From NCBI RefSeq assembly GCF_020966755.1, contig NZ_JAJKFT010000010.1, forward strand, positions 806,001 through 870,000: a stretch of DNA of 64,000 nt, written 5' to 3'. The position numbers and the translations under genes are program-made. The DNA is from Blastopirellula sediminis. GTDB taxonomy: Bacteria; Planctomycetota; Planctomycetia; Pirellulales; Pirellulaceae. This document shows positions 38,507 to 44,754 of the stretch, one piece after another (position 1 is the stretch's first letter; each line of letters begins with the position of its first letter). Under the pieces are notes generated by a model, which saw nothing but the letters and a program-made list of their open reading frames with translations, was not told the DNA's origin and searched no databases.

Positions 38507-39541
38507 ATGAGCGACTCCTCTCACACGATGCCCAAGCTGCACAACGCGATGTGGCCCGGCCTGGTTGGCAAAGAAGAGGGCACCGATCACCCGCCGATCA
38601 GCCTGGATCACATGCTCGAACTGACCGCCGCCGCCGAAGTGAACGGCCAGAAGTTCGAGGGGATCGACTGCTTCCTCTTTCACCCCCACACCGATCCCGA
38701 TGCGTCGGAAGACGAACTGAAGGCGCTGGCCGACAAGGTCGCTTCGTACGGTTTGAAGATCGGTTCGCTCGTCGCTCCCGTTTGGCCCGGCACCGTCGGC
38801 GCTTCGGCGATGGGCAGCGCGGAAGATACCGAGAAGTTCAAGCTGGCGATTGAAAAAGCGTGCCGCATCGCCAAGATCTTCAACGATCACGGCGTCCGCG
38901 AATATGGCGTGATTCGGATCGACTCGGCCACCGGGACCGAAAGCTGGTTTGACGATCCGGTCGGCGGGACCGCCAAGATCGCCGCCACCTTCCAAGAAGC
39001 CGGCAAGATCGCCGCCGGTTATGGCGAACGCTTGGCCGCCGAAGGAGAAATCTGCTGGGCCGGCATGCACTCGTGGCGTGACGTGTTGAACCTGCTCGAA
39101 GCGGTCGACATGCCGCAGACCGTCGGGTTCCAAGCCGACCTCGCCCACACCTATCTCTACCTGATGGGCTACAACGCACCGGAACACGCCCTCTTGAAAG
39201 ATGGCTACAGCGACGAAGAGTTCTGGGCCGCTTACAAGACGATGACCGACGCGCTGCGCCCCTGGACGATCGACTTCCACGTCGCCCAGAACGACGGCAC
39301 CGTCCACGGCACCGGCGCCCACGACAAGACCGGCCGTCACTGCCCGGCCGACGATCCGAACGGCAAGCTCGACATCACCAAGTGCTCCGGCTACTGGCTC
39401 GAAGGCGCCAAAGACCGCGGCATCAAACACATCTGCTGGGACGGCTGCATGTTCCCCAACGAAATGCTGGAACAAAGCACGACCTGGAATACGATCCTGG
39501 ATGCGATGGTCAAAGTCCGCGGCGCGCACGGCTGGGCGTAA
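38507..39541 (+). CDS. Sugar phosphate isomerase/epimerase (xylose-isomerase-like TIM barrel)
   Basis: 344 residues with AAAGGGA upstream. The barrel metal site is suggested by E-D-T-E-K-F-K (~residue 105), [19 protein letters not shown] (~210), and [11 protein letters not shown]. These fit AP-endonuclease-2/xylose-isomerase-like barrels that isomerise or epimerise ketoses and inosose. It sits before a Gfo/Idh oxidoreductase, as in inositol- and glycoside-type catabolic sets. The stop codon TAA abuts the four-helix-bundle element. Confidence 0.85.
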
Positions 39542-39590
39542 ATGACGAATGTCGAAACCAGAATGTCGAATGAATGACGAAGCACGAAAG
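39541..39590. repeat. Left 7-nt-periodic repeat of the four-helix-bundle element
   Basis: The sequence parses as heptamers AATGACG, AATGTCG, AAACCAG, AATGTCG, (AATG), AATGACG, AAGCACG. It begins on the last base of the isomerase stop codon and contains the start codon of the four-helix-bundle gene. A rearranged inverted copy lies at 39954-40015. Confidence 0.85.
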
Positions 39591-39957
39591 CCCGACTGAA
39601 GACGATTCCTCCTCCAAGCGAGTATTCGACTTGGAGGAGAGGACGGCACGCTTCGGCGAAGCGGTAATCAAATACGCTCGGTCTATCCCAGAGAACTCCG
39701 TCACTCGTCCTCTCATTCAACAGGCGGTTCGATCGGCCACCAGCATTGGCGCCAATTATTGCGAAGCGGATGACTCCGGTTCGAAGAAAGAGTTCAAATA
39801 CCGTATCAGCATTTGCAAACGAGAGTCGCGTGAAACGAAGCATTGGCTGCGAATGCTTGCAACGGCGATTCCCGAACGAAAAGACGAATGTCGTGAGTTG
39901 TGGCAAGAAGCGAAGGAACTAAACCTGGTGTTCGGAAAGATATTTCGCAATTGCTAG
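39574..39957 (+). CDS. Four-helix-bundle protein (23S rRNA intervening-sequence type, TIGR02436-like)
   Basis: 127 residues. The core F-D-L-E-E-R-T-A-R-F-G-E-A-V, Q-Q-A-V-R-S-A-T-S-I-G-A-N-Y-C-E-A, and K-R-E-S-R-E-T-K-H-W-L-R-M-L is the family signature. These proteins are encoded in intervening sequences of 23S rRNA genes and also stand alone; their function is unclear, and basic pentameric bundles that bind nucleic acid have been described. The start ATG and first codons (M-T-K-H-E-S) come from the flanking heptamer repeat, and the stop TAG lies in the CTAG that opens the right repeat. It splits an otherwise coherent sugar operon. Confidence 0.88.
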   Translation: MTKHESPTEDDSSSKRVFDLEERTARFGEAVIKYARSIPENSVTRPLIQQAVRSATSIGANYCEADDSGSKKEFKYRISICKRESRETKHWLRMLATAIPERKDECRELWQEAKELNLVFGKIFRNC

Positions 39958-40015
39958 TATCTGGTTCGTGCTTCTGGTTTCTTTCGTCATTCGTCCTTCG
40001 ACATTCGTCATTCAC
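39954..40015. repeat. Right 7-nt-periodic repeat, inverted relative to the left copy
   Basis: On the minus strand it reads AATGACG, AATGTCG, AAGGACG, AATGACG, AAAG, AAACCAG, AAGCACG, AACCAG. These are the same words as at 39541 in a partly different order. A third copy is at 43991-44030. Confidence 0.85.
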
Positions 40016-40054
40016 TCCCAAACGATCACAACCCTTCAGAAAGGTCCCTAATAC

Positions 40055-41194
40055 ATGTCGAAGAAGCCCCTCAACATCGGTCTCGTTGGTTACGGGTTCA
40101 TGGGTCGAACTCACACCAATGGCTATAAGCGCGTCGCCGATTTTTTCCCCGAGCTTGGCATCACCCCAGTCCTGAAAGCGGTCTGTGGACGTAGCGAAGA
40201 AAAGACCAAAGCGTTTGCGGAGCAGTGGGGATACGAGTCTTACGAAACCGATTGGGAAAAGCTGATTGCTCGCGACGATATCGATGCGATCGATATCTGC
40301 ACGCCGAACGATACGCACGCTCCGATCTCGATCGCCGCCGCCAAGGCGGGCAAGATGATCCTTTGCGAAAAGCCGATCTCGCGCACCACGGCGGAAGGGG
40401 AAGAGATGGTCGCCGCCGTTGAACAGGCCGGCGTCCCCAACACCGTTTGGTACAACTATCGTCGTCTGCCGGCGGTCACCTTGGCCAAGCAGATCATCGA
40501 CAGCGGTAAGCTCGGCAAGATCTATCACTATCGCGCCAACTTCCTGCAAGACTGGACGATCAGCGCCGATCTGCCGCAGGGCGGCGCCGCTTTGTGGCGT
40601 TTGGATGCGGCCGCGGCCGGCTCCGGCGTGACCGGCGACTTGCTCGCCCACTGCATCGACACCGCGATCTGGCTCAACGGCGGCATCACCGACGTCAGCG
40701 CGATGACCGAGACCTTCATCAAAGAGCGGATGCACCAGCTCACCGGTAAGGTCGAAAAGGTCGGCATCGACGACGCGTGTGCGTTCATGTGCCACTTCGC
40801 CAACGGTTCGCTCGGCTTGTTCGAGTCGACTCGTTACGCTCGCGGTCACAAGGCGCTCTACACGTTTGAAATCAACGGCGCCGACGCTTCGCTCCGCTGG
40901 GACCTGCACGACCTGAACCGCTTGGAGATGTACGATCACTCCGACGAAGGTCCGCAGCGCGGCTGGAAGTCGATTCACGTCACCGACGGCGAACATCCCT
41001 ACATGAGCCACTGGTGGGTGCCGGGCCTGATCATCGGTTACGAACATAGCTTCGTCCACCAGGTCGCCGACTTCCTGAAGGCGCTCGAAGAAGGCAAACC
41101 GTGCGAACCGACCTTCAAGTCGGCGCTCGAAACCGCCAAGGTCTGCGACGCCGTCCTCGAAAGCGGCAAGACCCGCCAGTGGAAGAACGTCTAG
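40055..41194 (+). CDS. Gfo/Idh/MocA-family oxidoreductase
   Basis: 379 residues, with AGAAAGG upstream. NAD(P)-binding [10 protein letters not shown] (9-18). The conserved C-E-K-P-I-S provides the catalytic Lys near residue 107. [10 protein letters not shown] (~195) carries the H and D of the active site. G-x-x-A-x-L-R-W-D in the C-terminal sheet completes the family pattern. It oxidises a sugar, inositol or sugar acid with NAD(P); the exact substrate is open. Last gene of the sugar run; a terminator lies at 41224. Confidence 0.92.
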
Positions 41195-41223
41195 TTCGCC
41201 CCACGACCAAACAGCAACCCCAG

Positions 41224-41252
41224 AAAAGGCTCGCCCCCGGCGAGCCTTTTTT
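41224..41252 (+). terminator. Rho-independent terminator of the sugar operon
   Basis: AAAAGGCTCGCC pairs with GGCGAGCCTTTT, followed by more T. Directly downstream of the oxidoreductase. Confidence 0.9.
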
Positions 41253-41271
41253 CCTGCGCGAGTCACTCTTA

Positions 41272-41498
41272 CTAGCCCGCAGCGCAAGCAAGGGAATGCG
41301 GCCGGAAGAAGAAATAGAACACGGAAGCCACGGACAAGTCACGGTAAGAACACGGCAAGAATAGTAGCCCACAGCGCGCCCAATTGTAGCCCGAAGCGCA
41401 AGCGAGGGAAATGCGTCCGCAAAGAACAGCGGAAAGCGGAGAACCGAAAGCGGCCAAGAAGCAAAACACTAACCCGAGGCGCAAGCCGAGGGAATGCG
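41272..41498. repeat. Left composite repeat block (modules A and B) of the AAA-ATPase island
   Basis: Module A, 41272-41415, opens CTAGCCCGCAGCGCAAGC, contains CCGGAAGAAG and AACACGGAAGCCACGG, and closes with GCGAGGGAAATGCG. Module B, ~41421-41498, contains AGCGGAAAGCGGAGAACCG and CACTAACCCGAGGCGCAAG. Inverted copies lie at 43826-43979 (A) and 44038-44110 (B). Four CTAGCCC/CACTAACCC-type units are included. Confidence 0.88.
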
Positions 41499-41820
41499 TC
41501 CGCAAGTCCTCGTAGGTTGGGTGCAGCGCAGCGAAACCCAACAATCCGCGTGCAAGCCCAAGGTGGGTTGCACAAGCGAACAGCGTTTAACAAGCCAAAC
41601 GCCCCCTCCGCGTTTGCTCCACCCACCCTACCCGGACCATAAATCTCGCTTGCAAAACATACTGGCGCTTTGTATACTACACCCCTCAAGATGCGGGCGT
41701 CTGATCAACCGCCCAGCATCCCTTTTTCTTCACGCCTCGTGATCGGACCGAGGCCTCTTTTTTCCAAAGCGCGAAGACGTCGCCGGGATGGCCGTGCGCG
41801 CTTGTTTGAGGAAAACGCCA
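41499..41820. other. Non-coding stretch with a GTTGGGT/ACCCAAC hairpin
   Basis: GTTGGGT (41516-41522) pairs with ACCCAAC (41536-41542). This resembles a hairpin repeat found in many bacterial genomes. Another GGTGGGTTGC/CCACCCACC pair follows (to ~41635). The last ~150 bp lead into the ATPase gene and probably hold its promoter. No gene seen. Confidence 0.6.
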
Positions 41821-43563
41821 ATGCGAAAGGCCCGAATCCGGCGCCTCGGCGCCCTGCTGCGCGCGAAGCAAAAGAAGAACAGCAAACAGGCCGACAACAC
41901 AACGGCCCACGAAGAGCTCGTCGAAGCCCAATGGCTCGCCTGCATGATGATGTACCCGGAACGACTCAGCGAAGATGCGCTCCCGCTGCAAGTCTTTCGC
42001 GTCCCGTGTCATCGGGACATCTACTCGGCCCTCCTCGGGCTGCACCTCACTGGCGACGAAGATCGAGACGACCAGCAGTTGCTCGCCGACCTCCTCACCT
42101 ACGGCTACGACAAGCTGACCGCGTCGGCATTGATTCAAGCGGTGATGCATTCCGGCGGCGACATGAACAACATTGCCGACTACGCGGCGGCCTTACGAAA
42201 ACGACTGACGCCGGCGCCGGAGCAAGTTGAATTGCCGCCGGACGGCGAAATCGTCCGACTCGAACTGGGCGGCGGCAGTTCGTTTCGCACGCTGACGACG
42301 GAGGAACTATTCGCCGAACAACAGCCGCGCGAGTGGCTACTTGCCAACTTCCTCGCGCGCCACGAAGCGGCAGTGCTCGTCGGTCCGAGCAAAACCTTGA
42401 AGAGTTCGCTCGCCGTCGATCTATGTGCAGCGCTCGCGAGCGGTGGAAAGTTTCTTGGCCACTTCGCCGCCGAAAAGCCGCTACGAGTCGGCTTCGCGTG
42501 CAGTAGCCATCAACAGCAGACGTTGACTGATCTCGCAGCGCGTTGGGGCGAAGCTCGGCAAGCGGCGCCAAGTCGAAACAATCTGATGTGGTTACTGACC
42601 ACCGACGATCCAGCCGAACCGGAGTGCCTGGGGAAACTCCGCGACTGGATCACGAAGCACGAGTTGGAAGTGGTGGTGATCGATGCGATTCGGTTAAGTT
42701 CGACCGGCAAACGAAAGCAAGCCGAAGCGCTGCAGACGCTCGCGCAGTGTTGTCTCGACAACGGCGCGACGCCGATTCTCTGCGTCCAAACGCGAAAAGA
42801 AATGAAACCGGGCAAACTCGACGCTGCGATCCTCGCCGGCAGTCTCGACTTCGCCCAGCAGTGGCTGTTGGTGAATCGCCGCCAGAGTTATGCGCCAGGC
42901 AGCGGTGAGCATCGCCTCTGGCTAACGCTCGGCGGCTACGCCGGGCAAGGGGGCGAATGGGGCGTCGATGTCGACGAAGGGAGATTGACCGACGTAGGGC
43001 AGGCCGTGCCTGCCGAAATGGAAACACTCGCAAGCAGAGCGGCAGGCACGGCCTGCCCTACGACTACGACCGGGCGACGTTGGCAAACGATCGTGCACGA
43101 AGCGGATGCGCTGCAAGACGAAGCCGAACGCTGGAAAGACGCCGCGCTCGATCAACGGATGCGGTCGCGAATTCGCCTGGCGATGACCGACCTCGGCGAG
43201 GCGCACGCGACGAAGTTGCGAGTCCGCGAAAACTGCGGCATGAACGGCACGAAGTTCGCCCGGGCGTGGGATCGGATGGTCGCGGCGGGGGAGATCCAAA
43301 AGATCATCAACGAGAAACAGTTCTACTATCCGCGGTATCGATTGACCGCGCCGCTAATTGAAGAAAAAAAGGACGCGGTCGAGTCCCGTCCGACGAACGA
43401 AAAAAATCGCGTCAGCGGTCCAGTCGATCCGCAATCCTCAACCGACGCTCTTCAAAATGCCCCAACGGGGCAACCTAATCTAGCCCAGGGGAAGTCGCCT
43501 TTGGCGACGCAGCCCTGGGTCGGTACGTGCACGAATGACATAAGCCCCATCGGGGCGATCTAA
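41821..43563 (+). CDS. AAA (RepA/AAA_25-like) ATPase with DnaB-N-like domain
   Basis: 580 residues from the ATG at 41821, which has GAGGAAAA upstream. Residues ~30-125 resemble the DnaB helicase N-terminal domain (V-E-A-Q-W-L-A-C-M-M-M-Y-P-E, H-R-D-I-Y-S-A). The ATPase follows: L-V-G-P-S-K-T-L-K-S-S-L (Walker A, 188-195) and V-V-V-I-D-A-I (Walker B, ~285). A C-terminal part has R-V-R-E-N-C-G-M-N-G-T-K-F-A-R-A-W-D, winged-helix-like. Such proteins act in plasmid or phage replication. Residues ~391-414 are encoded by an inserted palindrome and the last ~33 by another repeat. Looks accessory. Confidence 0.82.
   Translation: MRKARIRRLGALLRAKQKKNSKQADNTTAHEELVEAQWLACMMMYPERLSEDALPLQVFRVPCHRDIYSALLGLHLTGDEDRDDQQLLADLLTYGYDKLTASALIQAVMHSGGDMNNIADYAAALRKRLTPAPEQVELPPDGEIVRLELGGGSSFRTLTTEELFAEQQPREWLLANFLARHEAAVLVGPSKTLKSSLAVDLCAALASGGKFLGHFAAEKPLRVGFACSSHQQQTLTDLAARWGEARQAAPSRNNLMWLLTTDDPAEPECLGKLRDWITKHELEVVVIDAIRLSSTGKRKQAEALQTLAQCCLDNGATPILCVQTRKEMKPGKLDAAILAGSLDFAQQWLLVNRRQSYAPGSGEHRLWLTLGGYAGQGGEWGVDVDEGRLTDVGQAVPAEMETLASRAAGTACPTTTTGRRWQTIVHEADALQDEAERWKDAALDQRMRSRIRLAMTDLGEAHATKLRVRENCGMNGTKFARAWDRMVAAGEIQKIINEKQFYYPRYRLTAPLIEEKKDAVESRPTNEKNRVSGPVDPQSSTDALQNAPTGQPNLAQGKSPLATQPWVGTCTNDISPIGAI
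42993..43062. repeat. In-frame GTAGG-CAGGCC palindrome inside the ATPase gene
   Basis: Arms 42993-43014 and 43041-43062 are exact 22-nt reverse complements (CGTAGGGCAGGCCGTGCCTG...) with a 26-nt loop. It resembles the 15350 element in the first 12 nt. It adds ~24 residues to the protein (D-V-G-Q-A-V-P-A ... A-A-G-T-A-C-P-T) without a frameshift or stop. Confidence 0.9.
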
Positions 43564-43749
43564 ATGGGATCGATCAAGTTGCGTCGTCCCTGCGAAAAAA
43601 ATTGGCGTGGCGGTCCAGTCGGTTGGTTTTGACCGAACGCCGGCGCCCGGTTAGCGCGCCCCGTTGGGGCTTCGGAAAAAATGGAAGATCGTGACCCAGG
43701 GCTGCGTCGCCGTTGGCGACTGACCCTGGGCTAGGTTAGTTCGCCCCGT
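43465..43749. repeat. Large inverted repeat overlapping the 3' end of the ATPase gene
   Basis: The 56-nt arms 43465-43520 and 43694-43749 match at about 80% (ACGGGGC..A, CTAGCCCAGGG, GACGCAGCCCTGGGT). Both arms end in GGGGC-type mini-palindromes (GCCCCAACGGGGC; GCCCCGTCGGGGC). The left arm is coding and gives the last residues P-T-G-Q-P-N-L-A-Q-G-K-S-P-L-A-T-Q-P-W-V; the right arm is non-coding. A third GCCCC-GGGGC unit lies at 43542. Confidence 0.88.
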
Positions 43750-43825
43750 CGGGGCGGATGGAAGAGTGTGCGCTGTTTGGCAATTTGGAATTGTTGCGCT
43801 GCGATCTGCGTCGCTTGCTTGCAAA

Positions 43826-44110
43826 CGCATTTCCCTCGCTTGCGCTTCGGGCTATTATTGGGCGCGCATGCGCTGCGGGCTTTCTCTTACCGTGTTCTCC
43901 GTGCTCTTCGCCGTGGCTTCCGTGTTCTATTCTTCTCTTCTTCGGCCGGCCGCATTCCCTTGCTTGCGCGGCGGGCTAGTGAAGGGAGATTCGCACGTTC
44001 GTCATTCGAGCTTCGACATTCGTCATTTGCTTGCGTGCGCATTCCCTCGGCTCGCGCCTCGGGTTAGTGCATTCCGCTTTCGGCTCTCCGCTTTCCGCTT
44101 TTTCTGCTAG
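43826..44110. repeat. Right composite repeat block (inverted modules A and B, with a heptamer repeat between)
   Basis: Inverted module A at 43826-43979 and inverted module B at 44038-44110, with a 7-nt-periodic repeat (43991-44030; minus strand AATGACG, AATGTCG, AAGCTCG, AATGACG) between them. Relative to the left block the module order is permuted, so this is not one simple inverted duplication. The block ends exactly at the TAG stop (44107) of the next gene. Confidence 0.88.
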
Positions 44111-44754
44111 TGCCGGACCTTCGTGTCGATCAATTCGACGGCTCGGGCGAAGCGGTATTCTTTCCAGAGGCCGCGGCGGAAGACTTCGGCGTTTTGCTGG
44201 GCGCGTTCGAATAGCTCTTCCATATCGAACGGCCGATCGGCGCAGTTGGGGCGATAGATCGTCAGCCCTTGAAAAACCAGGTCGATGTTTTGCGACGTGC
44301 GGCCCCAGCCGGTACGCTCGGCTGGCTTCAGACCTTCCCACATGCTTTCTCGATCGATCAGATAGTCGGCCCGCTCGTCGAGATAAACGGCCGGGAACTT
44401 TCCTTCCTCTTGGCAGAGAGCGAGTCGGATGCGGAACTTTTTGTCGAGGAGTTGATTGACGGCCTGTTGTTTGAGCTCTTCCTGCATTTTCACCCACGCG
44501 GCGTCTTGGGCGACGGGCCATTCATGGAACGGCGCGACCGAAGCCAGGCGTACGTGCGTTTGCTTGTCGCCGAAGCGGATGGTGATGTCGTCGAGATCCT
44601 CGACGCGGGTCACTTTGATTTCGCGTTCGGTTTGCACGCCGAAGATCTCGCGCAGCGTGACCTCTTTCGGTTTCGACGACTGAGCGAAGGTGGGATTCGA
44701 AATAGAAATAGCGCTAGCAATGGCGAACGACGTCGCCCATACGAGACGATGCAT
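44107..44754 (-). CDS. Secreted protein, possibly nuclease-fold (SNase-like)
   Basis: 215 residues with a signal peptide (S-F-A-I-A-S-A-I-S-I-S-N-P-T-F-A). An OB-like strand pattern I-T-I-R-F-G-D-K-Q-T-H-V-R-L-A-S-V, then A-V-Y-L-D and the end A-E-V-F-R-R-G-L-W-K-E resembles the layout of staphylococcal-nuclease-like domains, but the catalytic Arg/Glu set is not clear to me. It is therefore a tentative assignment. Its 3' end adjoins the repeat island. Confidence 0.6.
   Translation of the reverse strand: MHRLVWATSFAIASAISISNPTFAQSSKPKEVTLREIFGVQTEREIKVTRVEDLDDITIRFGDKQTHVRLASVAPFHEWPVAQDAAWVKMQEELKQQAVNQLLDKKFRIRLALCQEEGKFPAVYLDERADYLIDRESMWEGLKPAERTGWGRTSQNIDLVFQGLTIYRPNCADRPFDMEELFERAQQNAEVFRRGLWKEYRFARAVELIDTKVRH

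Follow-up and report, generated by a model that had tools for sequence, protein, structure and literature searches.

A candidate minimal mobile cassette, made of one four-helix-bundle gene between inverted heptad arms, in an operon of Blastopirellula sediminis

What is a single small gene enclosed by inverted repeats doing between two genes of a bacterial sugar operon? The question is raised by a 64,000-nucleotide (nt) stretch of the planctomycete Blastopirellula sediminis (contig NZ_JAJKFT010000010.1, positions 806,001 to 870,000), which is called the window; all coordinates below are window positions. The upstream operon gene (38507-39541, forward strand) encodes a xylose-isomerase-like TIM barrel (AP_endonuc_2, PF01261, 37.2 bits) with its stop codon TAA at 39539-39541, and the downstream operon gene (40055-41194, forward strand) encodes a Gfo/Idh/MocA oxidoreductase that resembles levoglucosan dehydrogenase (329 bits, a score that does not reach the model cut-off of 650). 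Between them lies a gene of the S23p family (39574-39957, forward strand) for a four-helix-bundle (4HB) protein of 127 amino acids. It is preceded by a 7-nt-periodic left arm (core 39541-39588, forward strand, AATGACGAATGTCGAA ACCAG AATGTCGAATGAATGACGAA...) and followed by an inverted copy of that arm (core 39965-40013, reverse strand) that ends in TTCGACATTCGTCATTC. The left arm, the single 4HB gene and the right arm form a cassette of about 470 nt.

The first-pass annotation of this DNA had described 7-nt-periodic inverted repeats around the gene at 39574, between the isomerase and its Gfo/Idh partner, and this description is borne out by several measurements. The repeat words AATGACG and AATGTCG occur in both arms, and the longest inverted pair (39533-39588 with 39965-40020) spans 56 nt with 79% complementarity. 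The inverted-arm score around the gene is 52, compared with a maximum of 21 among six shuffles, and in the predicted fold of the transcript of 39530-40030 the two arms pair with each other (z = -5.3; none of 100 shuffles was as good). The coordinates also agree with the earlier statement that the element begins at the isomerase stop codon and that its repeats supply the start codon and adjoin the stop codon of the enclosed gene. Since the isomerase stop codon occupies 39539-39541, the core of the left arm begins on its last base; the ATG at 39574, a start codon chosen by prediction only, lies inside the left arm, and 7 nt separate the 4HB stop codon (TAG, 39955-39957) from the right arm.

The enclosed protein belongs to the family known from intervening sequences (IVSs) of 23S rRNA genes (PF05635, 47.5 bits with a cut-off of 33.8; TIGR02436, 66.6 bits with a cut-off of 24). 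A scan of the cassette gene against Pfam and NCBIfam returned only the S23p family and no transposase, Y1/HUH or recombinase domain, and no family of the PADLOC anti-phage models matched it at E <= 1. Only 2 out of 50,697 phage records matched, both weakly. The structure model (pLDDT 92) consists of four helices, and in a Foldseek search its best matches were the S23p structures 2RLD (E = 3.2e-5) and 2GSC (E = 1.4e-3), followed by a weak match to Avd of a diversity-generating retroelement (DGR) (4DWL, E = 0.098, TMq 0.59). Residues Q50, N61 and E87 are invariant across 48 aligned members, and a basic stretch at approximately residues 70-93 is common to the close homologues as judged by eye.

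The occupancy of the junction between the isomerase and the Gfo/Idh gene was determined in related genomes. A total of 92 loci were examined, of which 80 could be measured, three lacked the isomerase (one of these is a second stretch of genome G058) and nine lacked an anchor. A 4HB gene was detected at 8 out of 80 junctions and at none of the other 72, where the search was made with the window protein as query, so that 4HB genes too distant from it would escape, and where the class without a 4HB gene includes other inserts (L068 and L071) and a short hairpin (L078). The gap at these 72 junctions measures 42-262 nt in all but five. Junctions of the kind that the first-pass annotation had proposed to look for, with no 4HB gene detected, are present in relatives. 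The eight occupied junctions belong to the four genomes seen of the window's genus and to G082, G058, G101 and G024, and two genera are polymorphic: G082 carries the gene while G023 and G108 of the same genus lack it, and G101 carries it while G068 of the same genus lacks it.

The occupied junctions differ in their content. All four genomes seen of the window's genus carry a 4HB gene at the junction, one of which is different and broken; this gene (L064) shows 30% identity and two stop codons and lies between GCGGAAA heptads, whereas L062 has AATGACG arms, so that two types of 4HB gene and arm occupy the same site within one genus. In a further genome of the genus (G107, L063) a gene for an IS200/IS605 transposase (NF033573, 144 bits) lies within the left arm of the cassette, and the junction in G058 consists of a 2.9-kb gap with two 4HB genes. 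Elsewhere the junction is occupied by a broken GxxExxY gene with inverted arms on both sides (L071) or by gene-less CACAGAG arms (L067). Close homologues of the window protein at this junction number seven in five genera, and their tree is compatible with one or several origins (approximately unbiased test, p = 0.46). Close homologues were also found in other families and phyla, mostly away from this junction.

Inverted arms are a general feature of the protein family. Each gene was given an arm score, which measures how similar the 260 nt before it are to the inverted 260 nt after it, and scores of at least 30 were counted as arms. The family set represents the best-scoring part of the 4HB matches in 119 genomes (90 loci, 89 of them scorable) and is made up of L001, 29 others supplied as loci and the next 60 in list order; arms were present in 61 out of 89 loci. 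Among the close homologues within the order, a set to which the window gene and its genus belong and in which three proteins are identical to members of the set from genome contigs, arms were found in 26 out of 29, and among close homologues from Planctomycetota, Verrucomicrobiota, Patescibacteria and others in 72 out of 79. The plasmid copies, taken from the upper part of two match lists (12 of 24 and 12 of 38 records), comprise 23 cyanobacterial and one Gemmatimonadota locus and have arms in 22 out of 24 cases, with one match (L317) consisting mostly of another palindrome. None of 30 Gfo/Idh genes and none of 87 other small open reading frames (ORFs) reached the threshold. When flanks were swapped between loci, the threshold was reached by 1 out of 60 pairs in the family set and by 17 out of 57 among the close homologues, which share words because they were picked by similarity to the window protein; a chunk-shuffled control peaked at 30. 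The earlier expectation that the same repeats would flank other TIGR02436-like genes holds for the architecture in many loci and only in part for the words: the second 4HB gene of the B. sediminis genome (L001) has TCAGCGG-like arms with a word unlike that of the cassette. The second 4HB gene of G018 (L361) has an arm score of 18, under the threshold.

Several 4HB genes were found clustered in G087 (C1, 2409445-2432303), G013 (C12), G066 (C63), G077 (C2) and G037 (C5), and a tandem growth of cassettes is a possible explanation of these clusters.

Genes of the GxxExxY family (TIGR04256) represent a second family of one-gene cassettes with inverted periodic arms. Arms were present in 21 out of 30 loci (L092-L121), with 3 out of 60 swapped-flank pairs reaching the threshold, and they are mostly 9-nt-periodic. 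The protein family is different from and unrelated to S23p. The B. sediminis genome contains two such genes, one with 9-nt arms (L355) and one that scored 29, just under the threshold (L356).

The period of the arms goes with the protein family. In four sets of 4HB arms the identity at a lag of 7 nt was 0.66, 0.64, 0.56 and 0.76, compared with 0.12-0.36 at other lags up to 13, and 8 nt was the best lag in 11 out of 61 family arms. The GxxExxY arms peak at a lag of 9 nt (identity 0.48; best lag in 14 out of 21). The word itself varies within the 4HB family (AATGACG, AGCTGTT, GCGAGTA, CAGTTTT, TCAGGTA and others), and several close homologues in Patescibacteria have, by eye, AATTTCT in place of AATGACG. 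Protein identity and the fraction of shared arm 5-mers are correlated, with r = 0.28 in the family set, 0.53 after addition of the close homologues and 0.43 across phyla (0 of 999 permutations each). In the family set the fraction of shared 5-mers climbs above 55% protein identity to 0.17 and then 0.34. The correlation also appears between phyla, both in pairs of planctomycete and cyanobacterial loci (r = 0.27, 0 of 1999 permutations) and in cross-phylum pairs of close homologues (r = 0.34, 0 of 999 permutations); the clearest matches are Calothrix L345 and Pseudanabaena L350, whose 4HB proteins show 62-71% identity to that of planctomycete L033 and which have TTAGCTG words in common with it.

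Within a cassette, the similarity of the two arms is 0.64, compared with 0.44-0.52 between cassettes at 80-95% protein identity, a difference that is inflated because the arms were delimited by a local alignment that optimises the inverted match. The comparison of left arms with the left and right arms of other cassettes is free of this inflation, and left arms are equally close to both, as expected for arms that are homogenised within a cassette.

Copies of the cassette word are dispersed over the B. sediminis genome. The two-word pattern AATGWCGAATGWCGAA occurs in 69 exact copies (35 + 34) while the reversed control pattern does not occur, and allowing up to one mismatch raises the count to 107 places. 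Among the 100 of these places that were listed, at least 22 pairs converge within 120 nt, of which 20 are spaced by 53-56 nt, and no pair diverges. These converging pairs are gene-less (solo) hairpins, and the cassette itself is not counted among the 22. Twenty solo hairpins were retrieved (L422-L441) and 19 were aligned (L435 has a longer centre and was omitted), with a mean column identity of 85%. In 6 of the 19 the left arm is GAAACCAGAATGACGAA, which matches the start of the left arm of the cassette, whereas 11 carry GCTCG in the left arm and a CTGGT or CTGAT counterpart in the right arm; the stem therefore has an unpaired ACCAG/GCTCG loop in two orientations. As judged by eye, a second palindrome (AGCCCG...GGGAATGCG) encloses 17 of the 20 solo hairpins with both halves and three (L427, L438 and L440) with one half.

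High copy numbers of the pattern mainly accompany a close homologue of the protein. Of the 119 genomes, eight contain a homologue with at least 50% identity. At least 10 copies of AATGWCGAATGWCGAA, a threshold picked after the counts were known, were present in 6 out of 8 genomes with and 2 out of 111 genomes without a homologue (p = 2e-7; by genus p = 9e-5), and at least one copy in 6 out of 8 and 17 out of 111, respectively (p = 6e-4). A second word, CAGTNTTCAGTNTTCAGT, occurs in 22 out of 119 genomes, and the two richest (G067 with 60 copies and G025 with 40) both contain 4HB genes, with a similar arm at one of them in G025 (L192). In G107, arm pairs 407-422 nt apart were considered as further cassettes and rejected, as no 4HB gene was found inside. 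Three similar composite elements of about 500 nt in the same genome (L152, L153 and L154) consist of nested palindromes and AATGACG arms, again with no 4HB gene found inside.

Cassettes tend to lie behind the stop codons of co-directional genes. The positions were analysed with mechanically called ORFs and a tolerance of 12 nt. In 55 loci of the cross-phylum set (72 loci, 12 of them without an upstream ORF) the closest ORF upstream has the same direction as the cassette and in five the opposite one, and in 38 of the 55 the left arm begins within 16 nt of the upstream stop codon (median 7 nt); the median distance from the right arm to a co-directional start codon is approximately 22 nt. The upstream ORF is also mostly co-directional in the order set (20 versus 2) and for the GxxExxY genes (13 versus 5). 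Four cyanobacterial cassettes (L312, L313, L340 and L345) are opposite to both neighbours. The first-pass annotation had suggested insertion at stop codons, which survives as a trend among co-directional genes in the wider family and not as a rule. On cyanobacterial plasmids, six 4HB genes with adjoining periodic repeats lie between cas genes (L312, L313, L319, L344, L350 and L351), with L312 and L313 on the opposite strand and L319 and L351 below the arm threshold (scores of 26 and 29). The association of PF05635 with CRISPR loci may reflect insertion and not function.

Taken together, the locus is best explained as a minimal mobile cassette: its 4HB protein would recognise the arms of the cassette and assist in the copying of arm-bounded hairpins to sites next to stop codons, a reading to which a probability of roughly 0.55 is assigned. 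The distribution supports mobility, and recognition of the arms by the protein is inferred. Of the earlier claim of a mobile cassette, the inserted unit is supported by the 8 occupied out of 80 junctions and the two polymorphic genera. In the proposed mechanism the protein, with its S23p fold similar to Avd, would bind its own heptads in hairpin form; binding would enable the copying of arm-bounded hairpins either with the gene (cassette) or without it (solo hairpin), and the copies would enter spaces next to stop codons. Catalysis would be provided by the host or by enzymes acting in trans, perhaps through an RNA or single-stranded intermediate. If the cassette inserts behind a stop codon and its arm contains the start codon, read-through of the operon would allow its expression at a low cost to the host.

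A number of observations weigh against this explanation. No movement was observed, no recombinase domain turned up in the protein, and inspection of a few cases by eye revealed no target-site duplication. Arms fall below the threshold in 28 out of 89 family loci, and the preference for one orientation, which selection after insertion could have shaped, is less marked in the family set (27 versus 10). The homologues at the same site could descend from one old insertion, and the linkage of gene and arms can produce the correlation between them by common descent and without binding. That correlation is flat below approximately 55% protein identity (shared 5-mers 0.07-0.08, family set), and 12 out of 22 cyanobacterial loci share no 5-mer with the arms of the closest planctomycete protein. 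The link between homologue and word copies is incomplete in both directions: G024 and G082 hold a close homologue and no copy of AATGWCGAATGWCGAA, G080 and G056 have at least 10 copies and no close homologue, and the arms of the close homologues in G058 consist of AATGACC/AATGACT and not of the exact pattern. Similarly, G034, G082 and G010 contain the second word at a 4HB gene only, with no multiplication of solo hairpins. Covariation in the solo stem (1 out of 25 pairs) says little, because the copies are nearly identical.

Dispersed palindromes are familiar from repetitive extragenic palindromic (REP) sequences and their compound forms BIME and REPIN, where a related gene, RAYT, is flanked by the same palindrome and gene-less copies outnumber gene copies. 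The gene-less palindromes with the same ends as the cassette (at least 22 converging pairs) resemble this arrangement, and the cassette differs in that its gene encodes a four-helix bundle and not a Y1/HUH transposase. The 4HB gene could accordingly be a passenger, captured between arms that, like the solo hairpins, are palindromes of the REP type or of miniature inverted-repeat transposable elements and are moved by an unlinked transposase such as an HUH enzyme of the IS200/IS605 type. The abundance of gene-less palindromic copies would fit, as would the IS200/IS605 gene that G107 carries in the left arm of its cassette, although this copy splits the arm and seems to have been inserted later; other hairpin elements appear to have been active, because most solo hairpins lie inside both halves of the second palindrome. 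The arm period depends on the gene family between the arms (7 nt with 4HB genes and 9 nt with GxxExxY genes) and the word on the 4HB subfamily, a pattern that would not be expected of a passenger, and this explanation is regarded as unlikely, if worth serious attention. A retroelement, which would be a more specific form of the preferred mobile cassette, is rather unlikely as well: here the transcript, bound by an Avd-like 4HB oligomer, would serve as template for a reverse transcriptase acting in trans, and the cDNA would enter behind the stop codons of transcribed genes. The co-directional bias and the sites behind stop codons agree with such a route, as does the accessible text on 23S IVSs with the same protein, which describes insertions of folded RNA (PMC4990558). 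The four-helix-bundle fold, which resembles Avd of a DGR after the S23p proteins, also favours this route, and the Avd match is weak. The adjoining genes encode an isomerase and a Gfo/Idh protein and neither is a reverse transcriptase, no search having been made further off, and the four cassettes opposite to both neighbours also disagree with this route.

An accessory 4HB gene domesticated at a stable host locus, with arms that act as intercistronic hairpins to stabilise or terminate the operon mRNA and with no mobility at all, would agree with the presence of a 4HB gene in all four genomes seen of the genus (the broken one included), with one ancient origin for the homologues at this site, which the tree does not reject, and with the strong fold of the transcript. 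It is made improbable by the 72 junctions at which no 4HB gene was detected, the two polymorphic genera, the two types of gene and arm at the site within the window's genus, and the close homologues in other families and phyla. The resemblance to 23S IVSs with an S23p ORF (Leptospira, Coxiella and Brucella) extends to the protein family, the single ORF between inverted repeats that fold together, the strong hairpin and the size: the Coxiella IVS has 428 nt and terminal inverted repeats that form a 28-bp stem, and such elements of about 430-470 nt are suspected to be selfish or mobile in the accessible part of PMC4990558. By its location the cassette is not a 23S IVS: it lies behind a stop codon in a protein operon and not within a 23S rRNA gene, and it further differs in its 7-nt tandem arms, dispersed gene-less copies and words that vary with the subfamily. 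An IVS that strayed from rRNA into the operon is very improbable. The B. sediminis assembly gave no match to the 23S rRNA model RF02541 (166 candidates, 12 scored).

The mobile-cassette explanation touches on several families of heptamer repeats. Published words of the short tandemly repeated repetitive sequences (STRRs) of cyanobacteria are CCCCA(A/G)T, TTGGTCA and CAACAGT. The AATGACC arms found at homologues are the reverse complement of TTGGTCA, and a Planktothrix locus (L315) has AATCCCC; the word of the window cassette lies outside these three. STRRs are usually 7 bp long, can form hairpins and have no known function according to the accessible part of PMC2670836. In Xanthomonas campestris pv. 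campestris, 186 arrays of the GGGAATC type include 70 cases of converging pairs (PMC4692102), and the TAACTGA repeats of Beggiatoaceae are spread among distant groups by a process for which "no mechanism is evident" (PMC4679880). The terms S23 and four-helix are absent from the accessible text of the former paper, as are four helix and 23S rRNA from that of the latter. The three groups resemble the cassette word, with its high identity at a lag of 7 nt and its 69 exact copies, in being tandem, largely intergenic and dispersed, with hairpins or converging pairs in STRRs and GGGAATC repeats; they differ in that the accessible texts name no 4HB partner gene for them, whereas the words described here are the arms of 4HB genes. 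In the literature on CRISPR, PF05635 is described as similar to Avd and its genes near CRISPR loci are read as signs of DGR-based immunity (PMC10053308, accessible part), and the 23S rRNA intervening-sequence protein is listed among the domains of CRISPR-linked proteins (PMC10910872, accessible part). In the titles and opening lines of abstracts that the searches listed, a scope outside which lie preprints and most subscription papers, no link between 4HB genes and heptamer repeats was found; nor did the papers searched, as far as their accessible parts go, report that most 4HB members examined have inverted heptad arms whose words vary from one subfamily to another, or that gene-less hairpins accompany the cassette described here.

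On a wider scale, and more tentatively, the cassettes might constitute a cross-phylum class of one-gene mobile elements in which the protein family sets the repeat period (7 nt for S23p/Avd-like proteins, 9 nt for GxxExxY), the subfamily sets the word, and each protein, acting in trans, recognises its own repeats and propagates arm-bounded hairpins to sites behind stop codons. STRRs, TAACTGA and GGGAATC repeats would then be gene-less offspring, and 4HB genes in cas operons would be passengers and not components of CRISPR or DGR systems. This offers a candidate partner gene for the heptamer repeats of cyanobacteria, Xanthomonas and Beggiatoaceae, whose origin is left open in the accessible literature, and makes the link testable. 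It also suggests that S23p genes in 23S rRNA occupy one special address of a wider element, and provides an alternative explanation for the PF05635 genes in CRISPR-neighbourhood data sets. A mobile element without a recognisable recombinase whose repeat period is tied to a protein family would mean a new mechanism.

The region downstream of the operon contains further repeats. A lone right arm of the repeat type of the cassette is located at 43998-44027 (reverse strand), with no partner left arm found alongside. It belongs to a series of nested inverted repeats at 41271-44108 (AGCCCG..GGGAATGCG palindromes, 9-nt CACGGA arms, GCGGAAA heptads and the lone AATGACG-type right arm) around an AAA_25 gene (41788-43563), for which no match was found in the syntenic stretches retrieved from three genomes of the same genus and from G114. 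The 9-nt arms (41313-41338 and 43906-43931, AATAGAACACGGA...) resemble those of the GxxExxY gene L355 of the same genome, as if they were a remnant of that element. An Rfam scan of 39400-44200 gave no match on the cassette itself; two hairpins, at 43695-43756 (forward strand, 32.8 bits) and 43458-43519 (reverse strand, 24.1 bits), resemble Acido-Lenti-1 at scores below its gathering score of 37, and each occupies one half of an inverted pair (43445-43521 and 43693-43769).

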